Assembly: GCA_024207135.1 (NCBI GenBank)
Contig: CP042428.1
Span: forward strand, 3,844,001-3,908,000
Reading direction: 5' to 3'
Source of the DNA: Arthrobacter sp. C2
Lineage (GTDB): Bacteria; Actinomycetota; Actinomycetes; Actinomycetales; Micrococcaceae
DNA: 64,000 bases
Shown here: in pieces, positions 2,805-55,423 of the stretch
Numbering within the stretch: position 1 is the stretch's first letter
Layout: each line of letters begins with the position of its first letter
Position numbers and translations under genes: made by a program
Notes under the pieces: model-generated
Database searches by the model: none
Seen by the model: only the letters and a program-made list of their open reading frames with translations
Told to the model about the DNA's origin: nothing

Positions 2805-4295
2805 TCAGCGGACGGGCTGGGCAGAACGCAGCTTTTGGGCGACCTCGATTGCGTCCCCGCTGGGGGCGTCGGATTTCTTGTCAGGCTGGGCAACAAAGAG
2901 GTACAGGGCGCCGGATCCGGCAACGACAGCCAGTCCGATCAGCACAATCCAGTCGGCGACAAAGTCACCGGTGGCCCCGGGCCTGGCCAGCAGCACCATG
3001 GCAAAGACACCGTAGACCAGGGCAAGAACATTGATCACGAGACCTGCTGCTCCCAGGCTGAAGGGCCCGGCTGGCTTCCAGCCCTTGAGGCGTTGGCGCA
3101 GCGCGGCCAGGACCACGGCCTGGAAGGAGACGTAGATACCGAGGATGGCGAAGCTCGTTACCTGGGTCAGCAGGGACTCGGGACCGAAGTAGATCATGAC
3201 GCAGATCAGCAACGGGATGGAGCAGGCCACGATAAGTGCGTTGGTGGGCACCTTGGTGGTTGGCGAGACCCGCGCCAGCCATCGGTGGCCGGGAACCATG
3301 CCGTCTCGGGCGAACGAATACATCAGCCGTGAAGCGGCCGCCTGCAGGGAGAGCACGCAAGACAAGAACGCGGTCAGTGCGACGAGCAGGAAAATCTTTG
3401 CTCCCACCGGGCCGAGGGAAGACTCCAGGATGGCCGGGATGGGATCGGTGTCCTCGCCGTTGACGATCGACTGCAGGTCCGGGGCTGCTAGCACGTAGCC
3501 GCCGAAGGAGAGCAGGGCGGAGATGCCGCCGACCAGGATGGTCATCATCATGGCGGTGGGAATGCGGCGTGCCGGGTTGCTGACTTCCTCGGCCACGTCG
3601 CCGCAGGCTTCGAAGCCGTAGAAGAGGAACAGCCCGGCCAAGGCCGCGCCCATGAAAGCCGCAGAGTAGCTGCCGCTGCCCTCTACCCCCATCGAATCAA
3701 TGAAGATGCTGAAGGGCTGCTTGCGGGCGAAGATGAGCAGGTAGAGTCCCACGGCGATCACGCCGATGAGTTCGGCCGCCAGGCCGATGCGGGCCACCCG
3801 GGCCAGGGTTTTGGTGCCGGTGAAGTTGAGTACCAGGGCGATCAGGAGCAGCGCGACGGAGAACGCCAGTGTGGTTCCTCGGTTCAATTCCGCCCCGAAG
3901 GTGCTGGCCACGAATCCTGAGCCGAACTGGGCAACTGCGGTGATGGTGACGACCATCGCCCAGATGTAGATCCAGGCGGCCATCCAGGCGTAGCGCCGTC
4001 CCCATAGACGCCGGGTCCAGGGGTAGATGCCGCCATGGATCGGGTACTGGGAGACGACCTCGCCGAAGACCAAGGACACCAGGAACTGGCCGCCGGCCAC
4101 GACGAGGATCCAAAATACCGAGGGCGGACCTCCAGTGGAAAGGGCTAGGGCGAATAGTGAGTAGACCCCGACCAAGGGGGAGAGATAGGTGAAGCCGAGG
4201 GCGAAGTTCGCCCAGAGGGACATCGAGCGATCAAAGGATTGCTCGTATCCCAGGACGGCGAGGTGGTTGCCGTCTTCGATATTTTGGCTGCTCAT
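2805..4295 (-). CDS. APC-superfamily amino acid / amine permease
   Basis: A 496-residue polytopic inner-membrane protein with about twelve hydrophobic segments. The sequence FYGFEACGDVAEE in the middle, followed by NPARRIPTA, is characteristic of the amino acid/choline/GABA branch of the APC superfamily, so it should import an amino acid or small amine by cation symport. The ATG giving MSSQNIEDGN was chosen because the N-terminal extension in the longer frame is low-complexity and poorly typical. It follows the cache-like protein and GntR regulator on the same strand (117 bases after the former), so the three may form one transcription unit. The exact substrate cannot be read from the sequence. 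Confidence 0.88.
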   Translation of the reverse strand: MSSQNIEDGNHLAVLGYEQSFDRSMSLWANFALGFTYLSPLVGVYSLFALALSTGGPPSVFWILVVAGGQFLVSLVFGEVVSQYPIHGGIYPWTRRLWGRRYAWMAAWIYIWAMVVTITAVAQFGSGFVASTFGAELNRGTTLAFSVALLLIALVLNFTGTKTLARVARIGLAAELIGVIAVGLYLLIFARKQPFSIFIDSMGVEGSGSYSAAFMGAALAGLFLFYGFEACGDVAEEVSNPARRIPTAMMMTILVGGISALLSFGGYVLAAPDLQSIVNGEDTDPIPAILESSLGPVGAKIFLLVALTAFLSCVLSLQAAASRLMYSFARDGMVPGHRWLARVSPTTKVPTNALIVACSIPLLICVMIYFGPESLLTQVTSFAILGIYVSFQAVVLAALRQRLKGWKPAGPFSLGAAGLVINVLALVYGVFAMVLLARPGATGDFVADWIVLIGLAVVAGSGALYLFVAQPDKKSDAPSGDAIEVAQKLRSAQPVR

Positions 4296-4406
4296 GGCGT
4301 GTGGGACCTTTGGTGGCTGCGAGTGGGATATGGCGGTGGACCATGGCCTGCGTAGCACCGGGAGCCCGCCTCGTGACCGTCGTCACAAGAGTTAGGCTAC
4401 ACGCTT

Positions 4407-4426
4407 ATCATCCTAAATAGAATGAT
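4407..4426. promoter_or_regulatory. imperfect 20-bp palindrome between cache-like gene and permease gene
   Basis: Half-sites ATCATCCTAA and TAGAATGAT flank a central axis; 8 of 10 positions are complementary. The site overlaps the stop codon of the cache-like gene and lies about 110 bases before the permease start in an A+T-rich patch. It could bind the adjacent GntR regulator or take part in termination. This is inference only. Confidence 0.3.
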
Positions 4427-5123
4427 TATTTTCTCCGGTGGCCACCACCAGTGTGGTTCCCGGGACTGGGCATCCCGAAAACTCCTTCAGGCTTGAACCC
4501 AGGTCCCAGTCGTCGGCGGTCGAGACGATGATGCGCCCTCCGGCGGTGGCAAGCGCCGCGGGTCCGTCAATGGCGCGCAGTAGCCGCAGGATTTGGGGCT
4601 CGATCTTCCGTACCAGGATGTCCAAGCCCACGATGCCAGCTCCCCGGGCGCCCACCGGGGTGGTCAGGGTGAGCATGTAGTCGCAGGTGCACAGGTGGTC
4701 TACATAGGGTCCGGTAATGTGTCGGGCACCCGTGGATTCGGGGACCGAATACCATTCCAGCGAACTGAAGTCCCGCAAATAGTCTGCGTATTCCCTGGCG
4801 GCAAGGTCCAGTCGGGTGACCTCGGTGGTGGTGCCGGACAGCGGGTTCTCGGCCAGCGGGCCGAGCCACCAGGCAAAGTGCATGGCCTTCGCGCCTCCGA
4901 CCCCGGGGGTGGGCGAGGAGCCGGGACCGCCGATGTATCCGGCCCCTGCCACCGTGGCCCCTTCGACCATGAGCCTGGGCTGCACGAAACCAAGAACGAG
5001 GGCGTCGAGATCCGCACCGCGTTCCATTCCGCCCTCGACCTGGGTGCGCAACGCGTCAAGCATGGAAAAATGTTCGTTGAAAAGTGCGCCGATGCGCTCA
5101 GCGGTTTCCTGGGTCGTGGTCAT
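4413..5123 (-). CDS. soluble cache-like sensory domain protein (paralogue of 54692-55423)
   Basis: A 236-residue protein without signal peptide or membrane segment, hence probably cytoplasmic. It looks like a stand-alone cache (PAS-like ligand-binding) domain: HFAWWLGP, EWYSVP, GPYVDHLCTCDYMLTLTTPV, then IVGLDILV. The same order of motifs occurs in the protein at 54692-55423. The start at 5123 was chosen because its ATG overlaps the stop of the upstream GntR gene by four bases, a translational-coupling arrangement also seen in the second copy. It may sense the amine or amino acid moved by the neighbouring APC permease and work with the regulator. It has no kinase, methyl-accepting or output domain, so signal transfer by protein contact is a guess. 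Confidence 0.72.
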   Translation of the reverse strand: MTTTQETAERIGALFNEHFSMLDALRTQVEGGMERGADLDALVLGFVQPRLMVEGATVAGAGYIGGPGSSPTPGVGGAKAMHFAWWLGPLAENPLSGTTTEVTRLDLAAREYADYLRDFSSLEWYSVPESTGARHITGPYVDHLCTCDYMLTLTTPVGARGAGIVGLDILVRKIEPQILRLLRAIDGPAALATAGGRIIVSTADDWDLGSSLKEFSGCPVPGTTLVVATGENNHSI

Positions 5124-5872
5124 GCCGCGCGCTCCAATCGTTCCTTGGTCTTCAGCAGCCATGTGGTCAGCGTCTTGAGCAGCCGGCGCACGGTGCTGCG
5201 CGCCAGGTCTATGTCCCCGGCGGAAATGGCCGCGACGATGGTTTCGTTGCAGCCGTAAACCTCATGGCGGATGGCCTGCTCGCCAAGCCCCAGCCACAGC
5301 AGCTGGCCGAACTCGGCCTGGAAACGGATCTGCTCCCGCACCAAGCGCGGAGATTGGGAGATCACCGCAAGTTCCAGCAGGAATCCGCCCTGGTTCCGTG
5401 CGGCGGTACGTGCGGTGGTGAAATCGGCATCCGCTAGCCAATGGGCGAGCCGGGTGGCTTCCTCGCCGGAAGCCAGTTCGGCGGCGCGTTCGGCCGCCCC
5501 GGCACACAGCGTGGCCTCGTAGGTGCCGACATCGGCCAGCTCGATTCGCGAAATGCCGCGCAGCCGCGCCGTGAGCACCTGGGTGGGGGTGTCGCTCGAG
5601 GCCAGGACGAAGGAGCCCCCGTCGCGTCCGCGTCGAGTTTCCACCAGCCCTGCCCTCCGGATCTCGCTCAGCGCCTCGCGCGCGGTGACCAGGGCAACGC
5701 CAAAGCGCTGGGCCAGCTCAGCCTCGGTCGGAAGTCGCTCGCCGGGGGAAATGACGCCCAGCAAGATGGCGTCGGTAAGGCGCCGGGCCACCTGCAGGGA
5801 CCGGGTAGCCCCGTCCAGCGGCGTAAACACGGCGCTGCGGGGCCCTCGCGGAGTGGAGGGACTTTGGGTCAT
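5120..5872 (-). CDS. GntR-family regulator, FadR/FCD-like
   Basis: A 250-residue transcription factor with an N-terminal winged helix (ERLPTEAELAQRFGV, then TAREALSEIRRAGLVETRRG) and an all-helical C-terminal domain resembling FCD. In FCD proteins a D-x-x-F-H stretch supplies metal ligands; here the corresponding stretch reads GGFLLELAVISQS, so the His appears replaced by Leu. The start MTQSPSTPRG is used; the longer frame adds an Arg/Pro-rich tail that looks like read-through. It overlaps the cache-like gene by four bases and probably controls that gene and the downstream permease. Confidence 0.85.
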   Translation of the reverse strand: MTQSPSTPRGPRSAVFTPLDGATRSLQVARRLTDAILLGVISPGERLPTEAELAQRFGVALVTAREALSEIRRAGLVETRRGRDGGSFVLASSDTPTQVLTARLRGISRIELADVGTYEATLCAGAAERAAELASGEEATRLAHWLADADFTTARTAARNQGGFLLELAVISQSPRLVREQIRFQAEFGQLLWLGLGEQAIRHEVYGCNETIVAAISAGDIDLARSTVRRLLKTLTTWLLKTKERLERAA

Positions 5873-6806: not shown

Positions 6807-8594
6807 TCAGTGCAGCGGGTAGCTGGTGTCCTTTATGTTCGCCTCGACGCGGGTGTAGGCATCGCGCGCCACCGCCTTCCAGAAGCGCAAGGCGGTTCCC
6901 GGGTCATCGGCCTCCAGCCTGGCGATCGACGCGGCCGAAAGCACCTTCAGGTGCAGCCTGCCCACCGCGGTGACCCGGGTGGTCTGCTCGCCCTCGCCGC
7001 CCAGGGCGATCTCGCCGAAGGTCATGCCGGCCGAGAGCCTGGCGTGCCGCACCGGCTTGCCGTTCTGCAGGGTCGAGGTGACCACCTTGCCGCTGAGGAT
7101 GAAGTACACGCCGCCGAATTCCTGGCCGGGCCGGCGAATAATGCGTCCGTCCTCGATCCGGCTTTCCTCCATCAGGGACTCGAGCAGGTCGATGTCCGCG
7201 GAATCCAGCGGGTCCAGCGCCGCGAAGTCGCGGACCGCGACCTCGCTGGGCACCAGGTCCTCGCTGCCGTGGCGCTGCAGCAGCATGGTCTCGGCCCACT
7301 CCACCGCGTCGTTGCGGCTGGGGAAGCAGCGCAGGGACGCCAGCGGTTCGAAGGCCTTTTCCTGCACCAGTGCCAGGGTGCGTCCCTCGGCCTCCAGCTC
7401 CCGGCCCAGCTGGTGGATCATCTGCACCGCGATCCTGTCGATCTCGTCGACCCGGCGCAGGTCCAGGATCACCAGCTCCACGGACGGCTCCAGCCCGCTG
7501 ACCTCGCGCACCATGGACTCGGTGCCGGCGAAGAGCAGGTCCCCGGCCAGTTCCACCACATGTGCGCGCTCGCCGTACTCGGCCAGCAGCCGGTTGGCCG
7601 CATCGCTGTACCGGGTGTAGGACGGTGCCTCGGTGATGTCGTAGTTCTCGCGGATCGTCGAGCGGCCCAGCCTCGCGGCGCGCACGAAATGCAGGCCCAT
7701 GTCGGCGCTGATGCGCTCGCTGGCCGCGACCCCGCGCACCGAGGAGCCGTGCGCATCCAGCGCCGGGGAGTAGATGGCCAGGCCGAGCTGGCCCGGCAGC
7801 ACCGCGATCAGTCCGCCGCCGACCCCGGATTTCGCCGGCAGCCCCACCGCCGAAATCCAGGCCCCGGCGTCGTCGTACATTCCGCAGGTGGTCATGACCG
7901 ACAGGGTGCGCTGGACCGCTTCCTTGCCCATGACCTGCACCCCGGTGGCCGGCTGGGTGCCGCCGTTGGCCAGGGTCGCGGCCATCAGGGCCAGGTCCCG
8001 GGTGTTGACCATGACCGAGCAGGCGCGGAAGTAGTCCTCGAGCACCGGGGTCGGGTCGGTCTCGATGATGTCGAAGGAGCGCAGGAGGTAGGCCAGGGCG
8101 CGGTTGCGGTGCCCGGTCAGCGCCTCGGAGGCGTAGATCGAATCGCTCAGTTCCAGTTGCCGCCCGGCGGCCGCCGAGAAGTGCTGCAGGATGCGGCCGA
8201 AGCGCGGGGCCTCGGTGTCCCGGATCAAGGAGATCGTCGCGATGGCCCCGGCGTTGATCATGGCGTTGGCCGGACGACCGGAGTCCCTGGCCAGCGAGAT
8301 CTCATTGAACGCATCCCCGCTGGGTTCCACGTCGATCTTCTCATCCACCGCGTCCAGCCCGATGTCGTCCAGTGCCAGCGCGTAGGAGAAGGGCTTGGAG
8401 ATGGATTGGATGGAGAATTCCAGCTCGGCGTCCCCGACCTGGTAGACGTGCCCGTCGACGGTGGCGATGGCGATGGCGAACTTCGTGTTGTCCGCATCCT
8501 TCATCGCCGGGATGCCCTGGTAGGGGGTGCCGGAGGAACGGCCAAGCAGGTCGGCGTGCAGGTCGGCGAGGTAGCTGTCGATGGGGGAGCGCAT
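6807..8594 (-). CDS. glsA: glutaminase with C-terminal STAS and cyclic-nucleotide-binding domains
   Basis: A 595-residue protein. Residues 1 to about 310 are a serine-type glutaminase converting L-glutamine to glutamate and ammonia (SIQSISKPFSYALAL holds the S-x-x-K pair; PSGDAFNE and GRPANAMINAGA are family motifs). A STAS domain follows (AGDLLFAGTESMV, LVILDLRRVDEID), then a cyclic-nucleotide-binding fold (GGVYFILSGKV, MTFGEIALGGEG). The usual bacterial enzyme is about 310 residues, so both extra domains are regulatory additions seen in some actinobacterial glutaminases. FGEIAL plus a missing canonical Arg near TTRVTAVG leaves cNMP binding uncertain. The start follows the upstream hydrolase stop by five bases, so the two are translationally close. 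Confidence 0.93.
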   Translation of the reverse strand: MRSPIDSYLADLHADLLGRSSGTPYQGIPAMKDADNTKFAIAIATVDGHVYQVGDAELEFSIQSISKPFSYALALDDIGLDAVDEKIDVEPSGDAFNEISLARDSGRPANAMINAGAIATISLIRDTEAPRFGRILQHFSAAAGRQLELSDSIYASEALTGHRNRALAYLLRSFDIIETDPTPVLEDYFRACSVMVNTRDLALMAATLANGGTQPATGVQVMGKEAVQRTLSVMTTCGMYDDAGAWISAVGLPAKSGVGGGLIAVLPGQLGLAIYSPALDAHGSSVRGVAASERISADMGLHFVRAARLGRSTIRENYDITEAPSYTRYSDAANRLLAEYGERAHVVELAGDLLFAGTESMVREVSGLEPSVELVILDLRRVDEIDRIAVQMIHQLGRELEAEGRTLALVQEKAFEPLASLRCFPSRNDAVEWAETMLLQRHGSEDLVPSEVAVRDFAALDPLDSADIDLLESLMEESRIEDGRIIRRPGQEFGGVYFILSGKVVTSTLQNGKPVRHARLSAGMTFGEIALGGEGEQTTRVTAVGRLHLKVLSAASIARLEADDPGTALRFWKAVARDAYTRVEANIKDTSYPLH

Positions 8595-8599
8595 GGCTC

Positions 8600-9319
8600 C
8601 TAGCCTAGGGGCTGGGGCCCCTCGGTGTCGGCGATTGCGACGACGGGTTTCGTGCCCAGCGCCTGGCCGATGGCCGCTCCCAGGATCTTCGCGCCTTCCA
8701 CGTTGGGGTGCACCCCGTCGTCGCTGAGTCCGGCGGCGAAGGTGTTGGCGTCGCTGCGCAGCCCGGCGGCGGCGTCCACGAAGATCCACCCGCGCTCGGC
8801 GGCCAGGGATTGCAGGAAGCCGTTGTACTCCACGGTGGCTTCCACCGCGTCGTCGCGCGGCGGGACGCTGGAGAGCAGGACCCTCGGGGCCTGGACGATC
8901 TGTGAGATCCGGATGAGGTTTGCCGCGGTCCGCTCACGTTTGGTGTGCCGGGCCAGGTCGTTGGTCCCGGCCAGGAGCACCAGGGCGTCGGCGCTGCCGT
9001 GGCGCAGGGCCGCGGCCATGTCCCCGGTCTGGGCTCCGCCCAGCGCCCACCCGCCGGTCCAGGCCAGGGCCGGGGGTGCCCCGGGCGTGTTCACGTAGTT
9101 GATCCAGGAGGCCTCCCCGACATGCCCGTCGGCCACCGTGTGGCTGCCGGCGGCGGTGATCGAGTCCCCGGCGACCATGAACCTCACCTGGACCCCGCCG
9201 GCGGGCAGGGCAAAGGCCTGCGGCACCGTTTCATCGGCGCGCGGGCCTCCGGAGAGGCCGAGCAGGCCGGCAAAGACGGACACGATTGCGAGTATGAGCA
9301 AGGGTTTGCGAGTTCCCAA
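8600..9319 (-). CDS. secreted SGNH/GDSL-type hydrolase
   Basis: A 239-residue exported hydrolase. An N-terminal signal segment (LLILAIVSVFAGLLGLSGG) is followed by the SGNH blocks: VAGDSIT (nucleophile Ser), a Gly-containing middle segment, LLAGTNDL (oxyanion Asn) and DDGVHPN (Asp and His). The family hydrolyses esters of lipids or carbohydrates; substrate here unknown. The start is a TTG with GGGGG about seven bases upstream. It overlaps no gene but sits 66 bases after the acyl-CoA synthetase gene. Confidence 0.85.
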   Translation of the reverse strand: MGTRKPLLILAIVSVFAGLLGLSGGPRADETVPQAFALPAGGVQVRFMVAGDSITAAGSHTVADGHVGEASWINYVNTPGAPPALAWTGGWALGGAQTGDMAAALRHGSADALVLLAGTNDLARHTKRERTAANLIRISQIVQAPRVLLSSVPPRDDAVEATVEYNGFLQSLAAERGWIFVDAAAGLRSDANTFAAGLSDDGVHPNVEGAKILGAAIGQALGTKPVVAIADTEGPQPLG

Positions 9320-47753: not shown

Positions 47754-47820
47754 CGTAGTGGACAGGTTCCTCCCCGCAACCGCGGGGAGGAAGCATCACA
47801 ACGTACGGGTGGGTGAAATC

Positions 47821-49380
47821 ATGAACAAGTCAACAGCATCGAGGATGCGGGACCTGGGGGCCTTCGGGCTCGCGGGCTTCGCGGCGGCTGCCGTGCTCTT
47901 TTCCGTGGCTCAATTTGTGTCGGCCTTCTTCGCCACGGCGTCGGCTCCCATGGTGGCGATGGGCTCGGTGTTCATCGACCTGACACCGCCATGGCTCAAG
48001 GACTTCGCCATCGCCACCTTCGGCACGAACGACAAGCTCGCGTTGTTCATCTCCATCGGCGTGATCGCAGCGATCGCCGCGGTGCTGGTCGGGATCCTGG
48101 CCAGGCGCAGCTATGCCCTGGCGGCGACCTGCATCGTCCTCCTCGCCGTGGCGATCGGTGCGGCGGTGCTGTCCCGGCCGGCCACCGGGGTCGTTGACCT
48201 CACGCCGACCATCCTGGGGTCCGTTGCGGGGTTGGCCGCGTTGCGCTGGCTCACCGCCCTTGCCGCCAAGGCCCGTCCGCCGGTGCCCGGCGGCACCCCC
48301 GTCCACGGGGCCTCACGCAGGAACTTCCTGATCGGCACGGCCGTGTCGCTGGTGGGTGCCGCGGTGGCCACCGGCGTCGGCAAGTCCCTGGCGACCGCGC
48401 GCAATGTCGCGGACGCCGCCCGTTCGGCCCTGGGACTTCCGCCGGCCGCGGTCACGGCACCGCCCCCGCCGGCCAACGCCCAGGTCGAACTCGCCGGCAT
48501 GCCGAAGTTCATCACGCCGAACAAGGATTTCTACCGGATCGACACGGCACTTTCGGTGCCGCGCATCAATCCGTCCGAGTGGTCGTTGCGGGTCCACGGC
48601 ATGGTGGAGAAGGAATTCACCATGGGCTTCGAGGAGCTGTTGGCCGAGGACCTGGTGGAAAGCTACCTGACCCTGACCTGTGTTTCGAACCCCGTCGGCG
48701 GCCAGCTGGTGGGCAACGCCAAGTGGCTGGGCTACCCGTTGCGCCTCCTGCTGGAGCGGGCGGTGCCGCGGGACGGCGCGGACATGGTGCTCTCGACCTC
48801 GATTGACGGCTTCAGCGCGTCCACTCCGCTGGAGGTCCTCACCGACGACCGCATGGCACTGCTGGCGGTCGGCATGAACGGGGAACCGCTGCCGCTGGAG
48901 CACGGATTCCCGGTCCGCATGGTGGTTCCCGGTCTCTACGGATACGTTTCGGCCACCAAGTGGGTCGTTGACCTGGAGGTCACCCGCTTCGCCGACAAGA
49001 CCGCCTACTGGACCACGCGTGGCTGGTCCGATCACGGGCCCATCAAGCTCTCCTCGCGGGTCGACGTGCCCCGGTCCTTCGCCAGCGTTCCGTCCGGAAA
49101 GGTTGTCATGGGCGGAACCGCCTGGGCACAGACCCGGGGGATCTCCAAGGTCCAGGTGCAAATCGACGAGGGTGAGTGGCAGGACACGGAACTGGGCGCC
49201 GAAGCCTCCGTGGACACCTGGCGCCAGTGGCGCTACGAATGGGACGGCGGTTCCACGGGAAACCACGTGGTCAGCGTCCGTGCCTTTGACGGAGACGGGA
49301 CAATGCAAACCAGCGAGAAGGCCGACCCCGTGCCCGACGGAGCCAGCGGCTGGCAGCGCGTCCAGTTCTCGGTTGGCTAG
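47821..49380 (+). CDS. molybdopterin-dependent oxidoreductase, SUOX/YedY-type with membrane segments
   Basis: A 519-residue protein. The first 170 residues hold about four membrane segments; a Tat-like RRNFLIGTAVSLVGA follows near residue 165. The catalytic sulfite-oxidase-type domain contains SLRVHGMVEKEFTMGFEELL, YLTLTCVSNPVGG (Cys Mo ligand) and PVRMVVPGLYGYVSATKWV, then a Mo-co dimerisation domain. Extracytoplasmic active site expected. Linked to SigK in actinobacteria, which fits the promoter found. Confidence 0.9.
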   Translation: MNKSTASRMRDLGAFGLAGFAAAAVLFSVAQFVSAFFATASAPMVAMGSVFIDLTPPWLKDFAIATFGTNDKLALFISIGVIAAIAAVLVGILARRSYALAATCIVLLAVAIGAAVLSRPATGVVDLTPTILGSVAGLAALRWLTALAAKARPPVPGGTPVHGASRRNFLIGTAVSLVGAAVATGVGKSLATARNVADAARSALGLPPAAVTAPPPPANAQVELAGMPKFITPNKDFYRIDTALSVPRINPSEWSLRVHGMVEKEFTMGFEELLAEDLVESYLTLTCVSNPVGGQLVGNAKWLGYPLRLLLERAVPRDGADMVLSTSIDGFSASTPLEVLTDDRMALLAVGMNGEPLPLEHGFPVRMVVPGLYGYVSATKWVVDLEVTRFADKTAYWTTRGWSDHGPIKLSSRVDVPRSFASVPSGKVVMGGTAWAQTRGISKVQVQIDEGEWQDTELGAEASVDTWRQWRYEWDGGSTGNHVVSVRAFDGDGTMQTSEKADPVPDGASGWQRVQFSVG

Positions 49381-49502: not shown

Positions 49503-50306
49503 CTACTTCTTGTCGTCTCCGGTCAGTCGCTGGCTCAGGTACACCGGGATCATCGAGGCGAGCACCAGCACCGCGGCGATCACGTTGACCACCGGGGCCT
49601 GGTTGGGGCGGGACATGTTGTTGAAGATCCAGATCGGCAGGGTCTCGGTGCCGGGGGCCGCGGTGAACGTGGTGACCACGATCTCGTCGAAGCTCAACGC
49701 GAAGGCCAGCAGGCCGCCGGCGATGAAGGCCGAGCGGAACCCGGGGAAGGTGACGTGGAAGAAGGTCTTGAACATGTTGGCCCCCATGTCCATGGCCGCT
49801 TCCTCGAGGCCGCGGTTCATCCGCCCCATGCGTGCCTGGACGTTGTTGAACACCATCACGATGGAGAACGTGGCGTGACCGACGATCACCGAGAACAGCC
49901 CGAGCCCGATGCCCAGGGGTTCCAGCACGGTCTTGAAGGTGTTGTTCAGTGCAACACCGGTGACGATGCCCGGCAGGGCGATGGGCAGGACCACCAGCAG
50001 GTTGACGGTGTTCTTGCCGAAGAACTCGTAGCGGGACAGGGCGAAGGCAACCATCGAGCCGAGCACCAGGGAGATGGCGGTGGCCACCGAGGCTACCTTG
50101 AGGGAGGTCCACAACGCCTCGCGGACGCCCTCGTTGTGCCAGGCGGCAACCCACCACTTGGTGGTGAATTCCTTGATGGGGAAGGCCCCGGAGGTGGTGG
50201 CGTTGAACGAGTTGGTGATGACCAGCACCAGCGGCAGGTAGATGGCCGCCATGACGATGCCGGCAAAAACACGCAGGGTGACCTTGGCGGGGGCAGAGAG
50301 TCTCAT
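49503..50306 (-). CDS. spermidine/putrescine-type ABC permease (PotC-like)
   Basis: A 267-residue permease with six segments and the EAA-type coupling loop (RGLEEAAMDMGANMFKTFFH). FDEIVVTTFT near the end is typical of PotC-like permeases. Ten bases downstream of the PotB-like gene. Confidence 0.9.
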   Translation of the reverse strand: MRLSAPAKVTLRVFAGIVMAAIYLPLVLVITNSFNATTSGAFPIKEFTTKWWVAAWHNEGVREALWTSLKVASVATAISLVLGSMVAFALSRYEFFGKNTVNLLVVLPIALPGIVTGVALNNTFKTVLEPLGIGLGLFSVIVGHATFSIVMVFNNVQARMGRMNRGLEEAAMDMGANMFKTFFHVTFPGFRSAFIAGGLLAFALSFDEIVVTTFTAAPGTETLPIWIFNNMSRPNQAPVVNVIAAVLVLASMIPVYLSQRLTGDDKK

Positions 50307-50316
50307 GACGGTCTCC

Positions 50317-51246
50317 TTACAGGGCCTTCAGGGCGCCGGTCTTGCGCGCCAGGAAGAGGTAGATGACAACAACGACGATCGGCACGATGCCGAACGCCGC
50401 GGCCAGGGGCGGGTTGAGGTTGATGTTGGAAGCGATCACGGTGCCGATCACCTGGGTCTTGCCGCCGACGAACTGGGCGGCGATGTAGTCGCCCAGGGAC
50501 AGCGAGAAGGTGAAGATGGATCCGGCGATGAAGGCGGGCTTCAGCAGCGGGATGGCCACGGTGCGCACCGTCGCCCAGGACCTGGCGCCCAGGTCGGCGG
50601 AGGCGTCAAAGAGGTTGTCGGGGATCTGCCGGAAGGCCGAGTACACCGGGACCGCCATGTAGGGGAACCAGAGGTAGGCCAGGGTGACCACGAGGGCTGC
50701 GGTGCCGTAGCCCGGGCCGGTGGCACCGAAGGGGGCGAGCAGCCAATCCAGCGGGCCGCCGGTGGAGAAGGTGATGCGCCAGGAGAACACCTTGACCAGG
50801 TAGCCGGCCCAGAGCGGCAGGGTGATGCCGATGGCCAGCACCGCGCGCATCCTGGGGGAGGCGACCTTGGCCATGTACAGGCCCAGCGGCAGCGCGAGCG
50901 CCGCACAAAGCACGGTGACGGCCAGGGCGATGCCGATGGTGCGCAGCGCGGTGGCCTGGTAAGCGGGTTGGGTGAGGATCTCGGTGAAGTTCTCCAGCGT
51001 GAAGGCCGGGATGACCTTGGAGGTGAAGGAGTCGGTTCTCCAGAACGCGGTGATGAACAGCAGCGCGAGCGAGCCGATGTAGAGCACCCCGAGCCAGAGC
51101 AGGGGCAGCAGCAGCAACCCGGTGACCCGCATCTTGGGGCGGACGTAGAGGTAGCGGGAGATCTTGTCCCCGAGCGAGTTGCGTGCCGGGGCGGTGGAAC
51201 GGATGGGTGCTGCCGCCGTGTCCGGCGGGGATTTCAGTGCGGTCAT
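50317..51246 (-). CDS. spermidine/putrescine-type ABC permease (PotB-like)
   Basis: A 309-residue permease with six membrane segments and the coupling loop DASADLGARSWATVRTVAIP. FITAFWRTDSFTSKVIPAFT near residue 75 and SLSLGDYIAAQFVGGKTQVI support a PotB-like assignment. Pairs with the PotC-like protein to form the transmembrane channel. Confidence 0.9.
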   Translation of the reverse strand: MTALKSPPDTAAAPIRSTAPARNSLGDKISRYLYVRPKMRVTGLLLLPLLWLGVLYIGSLALLFITAFWRTDSFTSKVIPAFTLENFTEILTQPAYQATALRTIGIALAVTVLCAALALPLGLYMAKVASPRMRAVLAIGITLPLWAGYLVKVFSWRITFSTGGPLDWLLAPFGATGPGYGTAALVVTLAYLWFPYMAVPVYSAFRQIPDNLFDASADLGARSWATVRTVAIPLLKPAFIAGSIFTFSLSLGDYIAAQFVGGKTQVIGTVIASNINLNPPLAAAFGIVPIVVVVIYLFLARKTGALKAL

Positions 51247-51383
51247 GGCGGTTGCCGACGAAGCTCGTCGATCCTCCTCGTTGCTGGGAGTGAAGAATGC
51301 GGGGGTGCGGGGAAGGCCGGCGCGGGAAGGTGCTTGGGGGTCACCTTCCCGCGCCGGCAGTCGGGGCGAGGCTCAGGGAACCG

Positions 51384-52583
51384 CTATCCCTTGACCTCGG
51401 TCCAGGCCTTGGTCCATTCCTGGTAGTTGGTGCAGGTGACGTCCGTGCGGCCGTCGATGCACTGCTCGACCGGGGTGGTCCACATCCAGACCTGCTTGTA
51501 GTAGTCCTCGTCGGTTGCGTGGAAGGTCTCGCAGTGGGCTTCGTTCTCCTTGGAGCCTTCGCATGCGAGCTTGTTGGCCGGGGCCATGCCGAAGTTCTGG
51601 GCGATCTTGGCGTTGACCTCGGCGCTGGAGGCCCAGTCCATCCACTTGTAGGCGCAGTTCGGGTTCTTGGACTTCGCGGAGATCATCCAGGTGTCGGACC
51701 AGCCGGTGGCACCTTCCTTCGGGAGCACGGATTCGACCTTGCCACCGTCGCCCCGTGCCAGGTTGACCACGACCTGCCAGCCGGTGCCCAGGGAGGAGGT
51801 GCCCGAGGAGATCGAAGAGACGGCCTTCAGCGCGTCGTTCCAGTATTCGCCCACGACGCCGTTTTGGGTCTTGAGCAGTTCGACCGCGGCGGCCAGCTGG
51901 TCCTTGTCCAGTGCGTAGGGGTTGGTGATGCCCAGCTCGGGTTGTGTGGCCATCAGGTAGACGGCCGCGTCGGCGATGAAGATGGGCGAATCGTAGGCCA
52001 TGACCGATCCCTTGTAGGGGGAGTCCGCCGCCCAGGTGTCGGCCCAGGAGGTGGGGGCCTGGGCGACCTTGTCGGTGTTGTACATCAGCACGTTGGCGCC
52101 GCGGCCGATCGGGACCCCATAGCTCTTGCCGTTGAGGGTGTCATAGATCTGCCCCTTGAGCCCCTCGACGATGTGCCCGAAGTTCGGGATCAGCTCGGTG
52201 TTCACCGGGGCCACGTCGCCGCCGGCGATCAGGCGCAGCGAGGCATCGCCCGAGGCCGAGACCAGGTCGTACTCGCCGCCGCGCATGAGCTGGACCATTT
52301 CGTCGCTCGTGGCGCCGACCTTGCGGTTGACCTTGCAGCTGGTTTCCTGCTCGAACGCGGAGACCCAGTCGGCGTCGGGGTTGGTGGAGCCGTCCTCGAC
52401 GAAGCCGGCCCACGCGATGATGTTGACCTGGCCCTCGGACTCGCCTATTTCGGTGGCGGCCGGGAGGTCGGGGACCTGGATGCCGCCGCCGGAAGTGGCT
52501 CCGGAGCTGGCGCCACCGCAGGCCGCCAGGACGAGGGAGAGCGAGGCTAATGCTGCGAGGGGAAGTGCCTTGGAGATCTTCAT
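51384..52583 (-). CDS. spermidine/putrescine-type ABC substrate-binding lipoprotein (PotD-like)
   Basis: A 399-residue lipoprotein: lipobox LVLAAC (Cys22), then GQVNIIAWAGFVEDG, the start of the PotD-type fold, and KLACEGSKENEAHCETFHA. Binds a polyamine or related amine (putrescine, spermidine, GABA, ectoine-like compounds). The spread of acidic residues expected to coordinate the amine cannot be confirmed by eye. Confidence 0.9.
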   Translation of the reverse strand: MKISKALPLAALASLSLVLAACGGASSGATSGGGIQVPDLPAATEIGESEGQVNIIAWAGFVEDGSTNPDADWVSAFEQETSCKVNRKVGATSDEMVQLMRGGEYDLVSASGDASLRLIAGGDVAPVNTELIPNFGHIVEGLKGQIYDTLNGKSYGVPIGRGANVLMYNTDKVAQAPTSWADTWAADSPYKGSVMAYDSPIFIADAAVYLMATQPELGITNPYALDKDQLAAAVELLKTQNGVVGEYWNDALKAVSSISSGTSSLGTGWQVVVNLARGDGGKVESVLPKEGATGWSDTWMISAKSKNPNCAYKWMDWASSAEVNAKIAQNFGMAPANKLACEGSKENEAHCETFHATDEDYYKQVWMWTTPVEQCIDGRTDVTCTNYQEWTKAWTEVKG

Positions 52584-52662
52584 GATCGTGGCCTTTCTGG
52601 GTGAATGATGCTGCGGCCGGGTTGCAAGCGGGCGAAAGCCCCGGCCGTTGGGGGGAAATGGA

Positions 52663-53727
<1,065 letters not shown>

Positions 53728-53897
53728 GGTGTCCGTCCTTTCTCGGTGGGGTTGTGGTGCGGGTTACTTCTGGGCTGTTACCTATAGAACCAGATGTTAG
53801 ATGTAATAGCCATCACTTTCGCAAAATAATCTGTGAGAAGATCTTTGGGAGCGAGTCGCCGATGCCCAAACTCCCGGCATTCGAAAGGATGGTGAGC

Positions 53898-54695
53898 ATG
53901 CCTCGAGATTCTTCCCCGTACCAGCGCCAGCTCTCCTCCGTCTTCGCGTCGCTGGGAGACGAGGGTCGCGCCAAGCGCGTCGAGGACCGCATAATTTCGG
54001 GTATCGCCGCAGGCATCCTGCTCGATGGCGACCGGCTGCCCAGCGAGTCCGAGCTGGCTGCCTCACTCGGGGTGGCCACCATGACAGCACGCGAAGCGCT
54101 GGTCTCCCTGCGCGCCCGGGGACTGGTGAAGACCACCCGGGGCCGCGAGGGCGGAACGTTCATCACGCTGCCGCTTGGGGATCGGACCGGCATCCTGCAA
54201 GACCGGCTGGCGGCCATGAGCCGGGTTGAATTGCGGGACCTGGCGATCCACTACGTGGCCATCGCCTCCACGGCGGCCGAGCTTGCGGCGAATGCCGCGG
54301 ACGAGCATGACGTGGTTATCCTGCGTCAGCTGCTGGAAGGCAGGATCGAGGGCAATGGCGCCCGCGGATCGGTGGTGGGTGACTTCCTGCTGGAGCTGGC
54401 CGCGCTGAGCCAGTCGGCGCGGCTCACACGTGAGCATGTCCGGCTGCACACGGACTTTGGTTCGTTGTTGGCCCTGGCGCACGCCGACCCGGAGTTTGAC
54501 GCCCGGATGATCCAGCTTTGCGGTGACATTCTTGATGCGATTTCCGCCAGGGATCCGGCCAGGGCGCGAAAACTGGTCGGGGACTATGTCAGGGAGGGTG
54601 TCGTCTGGCTCATCGCCGACCAGTCCCGGGCCGGGATCCGGGCCGTGAAGCCAGAGAAGACCAAGCCCGAACGCCCCGTCCGGAGGACCTCATGA
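53898..54695 (+). CDS. GntR-family regulator, FadR/FCD-like (second copy)
   Basis: A 265-residue GntR regulator: winged helix (LLDGDRLPSESELAASLGVA, TMTAREALVSLRARGLVKTT) and an FCD-like helical domain. The D-x-x-F-H stretch that supplies metal ligands in most FCD proteins here reads GDFLLELAALSQSARLTREH, so the His is absent, exactly as in the paralogue at 5120-5872. Divergent from the ABC operon and overlapping the cache-like gene by four bases. Confidence 0.86.
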   Translation: MPRDSSPYQRQLSSVFASLGDEGRAKRVEDRIISGIAAGILLDGDRLPSESELAASLGVATMTAREALVSLRARGLVKTTRGREGGTFITLPLGDRTGILQDRLAAMSRVELRDLAIHYVAIASTAAELAANAADEHDVVILRQLLEGRIEGNGARGSVVGDFLLELAALSQSARLTREHVRLHTDFGSLLALAHADPEFDARMIQLCGDILDAISARDPARARKLVGDYVREGVVWLIADQSRAGIRAVKPEKTKPERPVRRTS

Positions 54696-55423
54696 GCCAA
54701 GACAAGACCACCGGCACCGGTGCCGATGTTTCCTACTTCTTCGAATCCCTGCTTCGAGACTTGCACGAGTGGGCCGGCAGGATGGGCAAGGTCTTTGAAT
54801 CCCACGACGGAGCCCCCGGTCCGCAGGAGCTCGATGCGGCGATCCATCCTCTGGTCAACGAGTTCCTGGATCGGAAGGAGCTTCCGCTGGTTGGTGCGGG
54901 GTTCGTTGCCGCCCGGGACGCGTTGGCCGGTACGCCGTGGCACATGGCCTGGTGGCAGGGGCCGGCCAAGGAGCGGCTGCTCATGCTCACCATTGAATCG
55001 GCCGGCGAGACGTATTCGCGACGCGAATGGTTCACCGTCCCCATGGAATCGGGCGAAGGGCACGTCACCGGGCCATACGTGGACTTCCTGTGCACCGACG
55101 AATACACCTTGACGCTCACCGTCCCGGTGACGGCCCGTGGGACCATCGTGGGTGTTGCCGGTGCCGACGTCCTGGTCGAGACCATCGAGCTGCTGCTCAT
55201 GGACCGGCTCAAGGACATCGACCCGCGGGCCACGCTTGTCAACGGCAGCGGCCGAGTCATCGTTTCGGCCGATCCGCAACTGGCCGCCGGAGCGCTGCTG
55301 GTCCGCGGTTGGCAGGGATCCGACGCTGCCAACCTGTCGGTTGCCGACAAGGACCTTGGCTTTGACAAGGTTGCCGTCGGCCGCTGCGGGACGTTGCCGC
55401 TGGCTATTGCCGTACCGGCCTGA
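54692..55423 (+). CDS. soluble cache-like sensory domain protein (second copy)
   Basis: A 243-residue soluble protein, paralogous to 4413-5123: HMAWWQGP, EWFTVP, GPYVDFLCTDEYTLTLTVPV, IVGVAGADVLVETIE occur in the same order. No signal peptide, membrane segment or output domain. Beside the PotABCD-type importer, it may sense the imported amine and work with the adjacent GntR regulator. Confidence 0.72.
   Translation: MSQDKTTGTGADVSYFFESLLRDLHEWAGRMGKVFESHDGAPGPQELDAAIHPLVNEFLDRKELPLVGAGFVAARDALAGTPWHMAWWQGPAKERLLMLTIESAGETYSRREWFTVPMESGEGHVTGPYVDFLCTDEYTLTLTVPVTARGTIVGVAGADVLVETIELLLMDRLKDIDPRATLVNGSGRVIVSADPQLAAGALLVRGWQGSDAANLSVADKDLGFDKVAVGRCGTLPLAIAVPA

Follow-up and report, generated by a model that had tools for sequence, protein, structure and literature searches.

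Paired genes for GntR/FCD regulators and stand-alone cache proteins in Arthrobacter sp. C2: a candidate split amine-responsive transcriptional switch

Does a GntR-type regulator whose gene overlaps that of a cache protein work together with this neighbor as its sensor, and if so, to which compounds would the pair respond? The question is raised by two gene pairs in a 64-kb window, i.e., the whole stretch of DNA analyzed here, of the soil bacterium Arthrobacter sp. C2 (GCA_024207135.1, CP042428.1, positions 3,844,001–3,908,000).

Two related gene pairs and their conservation

In the first pair (copy 1), the GntR/FCD regulator P0002 (positions 5120–5872, minus strand, 250 amino acids) precedes the stand-alone cache protein P0001 (4413–5123, minus strand, 236 amino acids), after which the APC-superfamily permease P0005 is encoded (2805–4295, minus strand; AA_permease_2, 145.9 bits). 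An earlier note on this DNA had described a four-base overlap of the GntR and cache genes ahead of an APC permease, which was found again at 5872–4413, with the correction that the cache gene stops at 4413 and not at 4407. The same note had placed an equivalent pair at 53898–55423 next to a PotABCD-type importer. This pair (copy 2) was likewise confirmed and consists of the regulator P0004, taken without 14 extra N-terminal codons (53898–54695, plus strand), and the cache protein P0003 (54692–55423, plus strand, 243 amino acids), the importer being encoded divergently at 49503–53727 (minus strand). Both copies share an identical junction, ATGA, constituting the 4-base overlap. Furthermore, the motif order AWW, EWF, GPYVD and LCTDEY is real and, with variations, family-wide in a 54-row alignment.

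Based on BLASTP comparisons, the two caches are 36% identical over 200 columns (E 1e-28) and the two regulators 37% identical over 235 columns (E 3e-36). Two related pairs are therefore present, as the earlier note had assumed; however, they represent distant paralogues of one family and no independent inventions. A third cache member of the genome was not obtained in whole-genome searches with P0001 and PF22673, which returned both window copies only.

Of 100 genomes from the window's family, 31 contain cache homologues; at class level, a distant query recovered them from 33 of 296 genomes, and at phylum level, an alignment search of 396 genomes, in which part of each genome's candidates was scored, gave at least nine. 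In total, 93 distinct caches were compared, resulting from 96 flanked loci and the two window copies after exclusion of the frameshifted L017, of L189, which is a chemoreceptor, and of three identical rows; the sample is uneven, with 36 of the 96 loci originating from similarity to copy 2. The GntR gene is located directly upstream on the same strand in 87 relatives, is reversed (downstream) in one and is fused to the cache in two (L147 and L170). The three relatives without GntR are L016, which starts at a contig edge, L157, which carries a GntR fragment, and L006, a near relative of copy 2 in which the cache frame is broken and GntR is missing. Within the first set of loci, the most frequent junction was again the 4-base overlap (21 of 54). 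Pairwise distances of the regulators and of the caches correlate at 0.94 over 89 pairs, as expected for co-inherited genes. Moreover, one genome (G651) harbors three paralogous pairs (L150, L175 and L184) with different neighbors, indicating that the unit multiplies as a pair.

Searches of a further 37 and 21 related genomes yielded no fused chain, and among 394 genomes of the class (at most three candidates scored each) the only stop-free match spanning both domains was L170, re-found; two further spanning matches are interrupted by stops. Frames of 503–540 amino acids at L048, L057, L058 and L064 were rejected as fusions, the cache frame being open alongside a separate GntR frame.

The earlier note had envisaged that the caches might prove unrelated in a profile search or that the pair might be absent from relatives; neither applies, given the identities above and the retention of the pair across Actinobacteria. 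As judged from the sequences, the GntR-cache pair is a real, conserved unit. That unrelated genes became linked by chance or hitch-hiking is extremely improbable and is contradicted by the survey: the two are adjacent or fused in 90 of the 93 relatives, and they share a common context and a common site, both described below.

Neighboring genes and a predicted operator

The importer beside copy 2 comprises an ATPase of the PotA subfamily (52663–53727; TIGR01187, 371.3 bits vs. a cut-off of 355.6), a substrate-binding protein with YdcS as its nearest NCBIfam model (51384–52583; 332.2 bits, under the cut-off of 725), a PotB/PotH-like permease (50317–51246) and a PotC/PotI-like permease (49503–50306), all encoded on the minus strand and both permeases scoring under the cut-offs. 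It is probably a YdcSTUV/PotABCD-type importer, for which only the PotA model passed and the YdcS, PotB and PotC equivalogs remained under cut-off. Beside the importer, a molybdopterin oxidoreductase is encoded (47758–49380, plus strand; Oxidored_molyb, 144.5 bits; nearest NCBIfam model SorA, under cut-off). The second gene upstream of copy 1 (6807–8789, minus strand) encodes a 660-residue chain with Pfam matches to Glutaminase (361.7 bits) and a C-terminal cNMP_binding domain (43.8 bits).

In order to describe the context of the pairs, the window importer and representative catabolic proteins served as queries within 5.6 kb of the pair at 91 loci (L006 and L016 excluded). An importer substrate-binding protein together with a permease was found beside 58 of the 91 pairs vs. 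none of 17 FCD regulators taken as controls from the same genome, the usual layout being a divergent operon of ATPase, binding protein, permease and permease adjoining the GntR gene. Any amine-type transport or catabolism gene was present beside 84 of the 91 pairs vs. one of the 17 control regulators, this set comprising importer binding protein/permease, APC permease, glutamine-synthetase-like, PuuD-like, aminotransferase and aldehyde dehydrogenase genes, where enzyme names denote NCBIfam matches under cut-off and two of the families, the aldehyde dehydrogenases and the APC permeases, are broad. In the less biased subset from class and phylum, the corresponding values were 19 and 31 of 37 pairs. 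The neighbor is not always a transporter: other pairs adjoin permeases or catabolic genes in place of the importer, and seven of the 91 lack all of the amine-type genes sought. For copy 1, the adjoining APC permease (2805–4295) is the probable target. At L004, a near relative of copy 2, the pair is present (GntR match in two frames), and importer and site are absent.

Palindromic motif discovery on 39 non-redundant ATPase-GntR intergenic regions yielded a 22-bp consensus, AAACcTaTGaattCAtAgGTTt, with a log-likelihood of 409.6 at width 22; for the motif of width 20, the value was 355.0 vs. 31.5–39.5 in eight dinucleotide-shuffled sets. An initial search including coding sequence had picked up palindromes that belong to the ATPase reading frame; these were rejected and the search was redone on intergenic regions. 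Scores of at least 20 bits were reached in 51 of 56 ATPase-GntR intergenic regions. Among 88 loci (the two fused loci and L157 excluded), a site of at least 12 bits occurs near the pair in all 58 importer loci, which include the training set of the matrix, and in 13 of the 30 others, the remaining 17 having no 12-bit site; random control windows contained such a site in 15 of 2000 cases, and away from the pairs nine were counted in 925,337 positions. With a matrix built from 17 outside-family intergenic regions, scores of 15 bits or higher were obtained for 35 of the remaining 39; one control locus reaches 20.5 bits with this matrix.

The predicted copy 2 operator, TTACCTATAGAACCAGATGTTA, is located at 53778–53799 between the importer and GntR genes (25.2 bits). 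It represents the top score of the 64-kb window with the full matrix as well as with the outside-family matrix (25.7 bits). A possible second site at 53825–53846 is weaker (13.7 bits; 7.6 bits with the outside-family matrix). For copy 1, a site predicted with moderate confidence extends over the cache stop codon before the permease (4406–4427; 15.7 bits), being second-best of the window by the full matrix and third by the outside-family matrix (11.0 bits). Similarly placed sites, starting no more than 2 bp from the cache end, were found at L130, L040, L184 and L186 (12.7–16.3 bits), and L185 has a weak one at +74 from the cache end (7.8 bits). One of 17 control 15-kb regions outscores 4406–4427 (16.7 vs. 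15.7 bits), so that, together with its third rank by the outside-family matrix, the copy 1 site constitutes weaker evidence. The best match of this control locus, L192, is AAACATCAGACGTCTAATGTTT (G000:C1:3456439–3456460, 16.7 bits), at a distance of approximately 1.6 kb from the FCD match of a different GntR. A further palindrome, TGTGA-N6-TCACG, which we take to be Crp/GlxR-like, is located at 4372–4387, after the copy 1 site and ahead of the permease.

Four plasmid loci had no part in training. In three of them, the best site adjoins the pair (20.9, 33.6 and 16.8 bits) and in the fourth the second-best one does (10.9 bits), the 33.6-bit site being placed between the GntR gene and a divergent importer. 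At L232 (Gordonia sp. KTR9 plasmid pGKT2, 7132–14143), a cytochrome P450 gene directly follows the FCD and cache genes, and beyond it come a stretch resembling glutamine synthetase, an FAD oxidoreductase and another P450; the 20.9-bit site is situated between the cache gene and the adjoining P450 gene. Such a placement hints that other catabolic clusters, too, can recruit the pair. A search under one name for a regulator of the P450 cluster in strain KTR9 gave no match.

Genome-wide, a degenerate pattern of the site gave 13 matches vs. 15 for the reversed control, so that no further regulon member is called. Scans of both intergenic regions for sigma-70 promoters and terminators returned nothing informative.

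The copy 2 site lies between divergent start codons, and the sequence data are compatible with either sign of control. The cache might be a co-repressor or co-activator required for DNA binding, with the amine lowering importer expression in a homeostatic manner. This reading is rather unlikely, since other pairs adjoin catabolic genes, and catabolic genes are usually induced by their substrates.

Cache pockets and the FCD metal site

Among the window caches, P0003 scores above the Pfam MCP-like_PDC_1 cut-off (33.1 vs. 27 bits) and P0001 below it (21.8 vs. 27 bits); P0003 also stays under the dCache_1 cut-off (39.8 vs. 45 bits). The structural model of the copy 2 cache (mean pLDDT 91.8) displays a double-cache fold. 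Its best PDB match by Foldseek is McpX (6d8v; E 1.6e-11, query TM 0.63), and this amine receptor is followed, in second and third place, by PctA, a receptor for amino acids, and McpU, a receptor for putrescine. For copy 1, the dCache fold is assigned by way of its 36% identity to the modeled copy 2. Neither window cache possesses an output domain, each being a stand-alone protein in a two-gene operon with a GntR factor.

Both window caches are predicted to be cytoplasmic. Within the first 60 residues, hydropathy (19-residue mean) peaks at 1.25 in the copy 1 cache and at 0.13 in the copy 2 cache, and the single peak of the latter (1.82 at residues 152–170) corresponds to a core strand and helix in the model. 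A hydropathy window of at least 1.6 occurs in 22 of the 93 relatives.

Pocket residues were mapped by alignment to McpX and the residue numbers of PMC11245519; positions 188 and 190 are accurate to ±1 owing to an alignment gap, and the alignments covering the pocket leave out the cation-pi aromatic (PctD W155, McpX Y139) and the R103-D133 pair. The amine-motif positions W161, Y162, Y177, M188, S190 and D208 of McpX correspond to W113, F114, Y129, L140, T141 and D159 in copy 2 and to W124, Y125, Y140, L151, T152 and D168 in copy 1, T replacing S190 in both window caches. Across the 93 relatives (copy 2 numbering), D159, D131 and an aromatic residue at each of W113 and Y129 are invariant, and T141 is conserved in 92; overall, both window caches and almost all of the 93 relatives retain the aromatic, hydrophobic and aspartate residues of the amine motif. 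The position of the amino-acid-specific arginine of PctA (R126) is occupied by L in copy 1, by R111 in copy 2 and by R in 24 of the 93 relatives; a PctA R126-type arginine is no family feature.

It is likely that the cache ligands are amines, even though D131 is invariant and sequence profiles rank PctA (6e-11) over PctD (4e-6) and McpX (8e-6). The alternative, rated as unlikely, retains the split architecture but has some members, among them copy 2, bind an amino acid in a dCache_1AA-like pocket. Beyond the profile ranking, it can refer to copy 2 residues R111, D131 and D159, which align with R126, D146 and D173 of PctA; D146, aligned to the invariant D131, is an amino-acid-motif position. 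It is opposed by the confinement of R111 to about a quarter of the relatives, by the polyamine/GABA-like gene context and by the first rank of McpX in the fold comparison.

The partner proteins are GntR regulators of the FCD type. Pfam scores of the copy 1 and copy 2 regulators amount to 59.8 and 54.2 bits for the GntR helix-turn-helix (cut-off 27) and to 26.1 and 32.8 bits for FCD (cut-off 24.3). The model of the copy 2 regulator (265 amino acids, mean pLDDT 87.3) matched best to the GntR regulators NanR, PmiR and VanR. In the passages of PMC4746285 drawn on here, metal binding is presumed for most, not all, FCD proteins and is attributed in LldR to His148/196/218 in the effector pocket. In the window regulators, the FCD tetrad D-H-H-H is changed to Q-L-N-L in copy 1 and to V-L-C-Y in copy 2, i.e., none of the three histidines is kept in either copy.

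Counted over 89 paired GntRs (L026, which contains a run of N, and three loci without GntR excluded), none of the histidines is kept in 45, one in 11, two in six and three in 27; for the 17 control FCD regulators, three are kept in 12, two in four, one in one and none in no case. Since the GntR tree requires only two to three changes and both window copies fall within one 54-row clade, the 45 histidine-less regulators are not independent, and the loss represents a lineage trait and no locus-by-locus decay. Nor is it general, all three residues being retained in 27 paired regulators. The loss fits outsourced sensing and is no proof of it.

The retained triads, together with the importer adjoining 58 of the 91 pairs, would agree with GntR sensing a carboxylate/metal complex by its own FCD domain and with a separate role of the cache, e.g., gating the importer from inside. 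This combination is considered quite improbable: it is at odds with the missing histidines of both window regulators, with the 33 of 91 loci at which the cache still accompanies GntR and no importer binding protein with permease was found, and with the two fused chains linking cache and GntR.

A split switch and its relation to known systems

The claim of the earlier note that a regulator is paired here with a separate ligand-sensing protein is supported by retention of the pair across Actinobacteria, two fusions, the amine-gene context and the common palindrome. Based on these features, each pair probably constitutes a split amine-responsive transcriptional switch, in which the cache senses and GntR binds DNA. 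The GntR dimer would bind the AAACcTaTGaattCAtAgGTTt-type palindrome, its presumed operator, at promoters of an amine importer, a permease or a catabolic operon. In both window regulators, the FCD part has lost its usual metal/effector ligands, and sensing may have been handed to the cytoplasmic dCache protein encoded by the overlapping gene. An incoming amine, the presumed ligand, would occupy the dCache pocket, and the loaded protein would bind the C-terminal domain of GntR and alter its DNA binding; contact between the two proteins is inferred. Most likely, the loaded dCache would relieve repression; induction as the direction of control is a guess.

The broader proposal is that a GntR repressor lineage ceded its FCD pocket and that a trans-acting cytoplasmic dCache protein from the chemoreceptor sensor superfamily took its place, resulting in a 'split one-component system' controlling amine import and breakdown via one conserved operator. 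We regard this proposal as evenly poised between being right and being wrong. What the sequences themselves show are family, predicted fold, linkage, context, palindrome and loss of FCD ligands. If the proposal is true, it illustrates how a one-component regulator can forfeit its effector site and come to rely on a partner, and cache domains, known chiefly as extracytoplasmic sensors, would here provide a transcription factor with a separate sensor subunit in the cytoplasm. Furthermore, a possible role is suggested for proteins annotated merely as 'cache domain-containing protein', and with an operator, target genes and a ligand class predicted, the mechanism becomes directly testable.

Stand-alone intracellular dCache_1AM proteins in two-gene operons with GntR regulators were already described for Actinobacteria, Arthrobacter being named, by Cerna-Vargas et al. 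(2023; PMC10104139), who in the passages covered regard them as an extracellular domain repurposed to sense inside the cell. The window pairs are thus members of a reported kind. The passages covered contain no operator or context analysis and no mechanism, and the words transporter, importer, FCD and fusion are absent from the main text of the preprint. The arrangement itself is already reported, and the predicted operator, the target genes and a possible reason for the separate sensor are added here. Other descriptions of the pair were not recognized in a literature search whose scope lay largely outside subscription journals. Streptomyces EpuRI/EpuRII were considered as characterized kin and dropped, the words GntR and cache being absent from the main text of PMC8998196.

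The predicted fold and most pocket positions of the window caches resemble those of the dCache_1 amine chemoreceptors McpX, PctD and PacA and of the putrescine receptor McpU; however, the latter caches are sensor domains of membrane chemoreceptors, whereas the window caches stand alone without output domain. With respect to transport, the E. coli YdcSTUV importer provides, with YdcS, the nearest curated model for the copy 2 binding protein. YdcSTUV is adjoined by the GntR-type regulator YdcR, which is of the MocR type, i.e., fused to an aminotransferase-like domain, and is not known to have a cache partner. The FCD regulators LldR/CGL2915, TM0439 and CitO combine a winged helix with an FCD domain as the window GntRs do; according to the passages drawn on, they keep a metal site in the effector pocket, for which the window GntRs have no matching histidines. 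A GntR regulator touching separate signaling proteins is likewise found in the cyanobacterial PlmA-PII-PipX system, according to the abstract of PMC5083789; the partners of PlmA are PipX/PII, whereas the candidate partner of the window GntRs is a cache domain protein.
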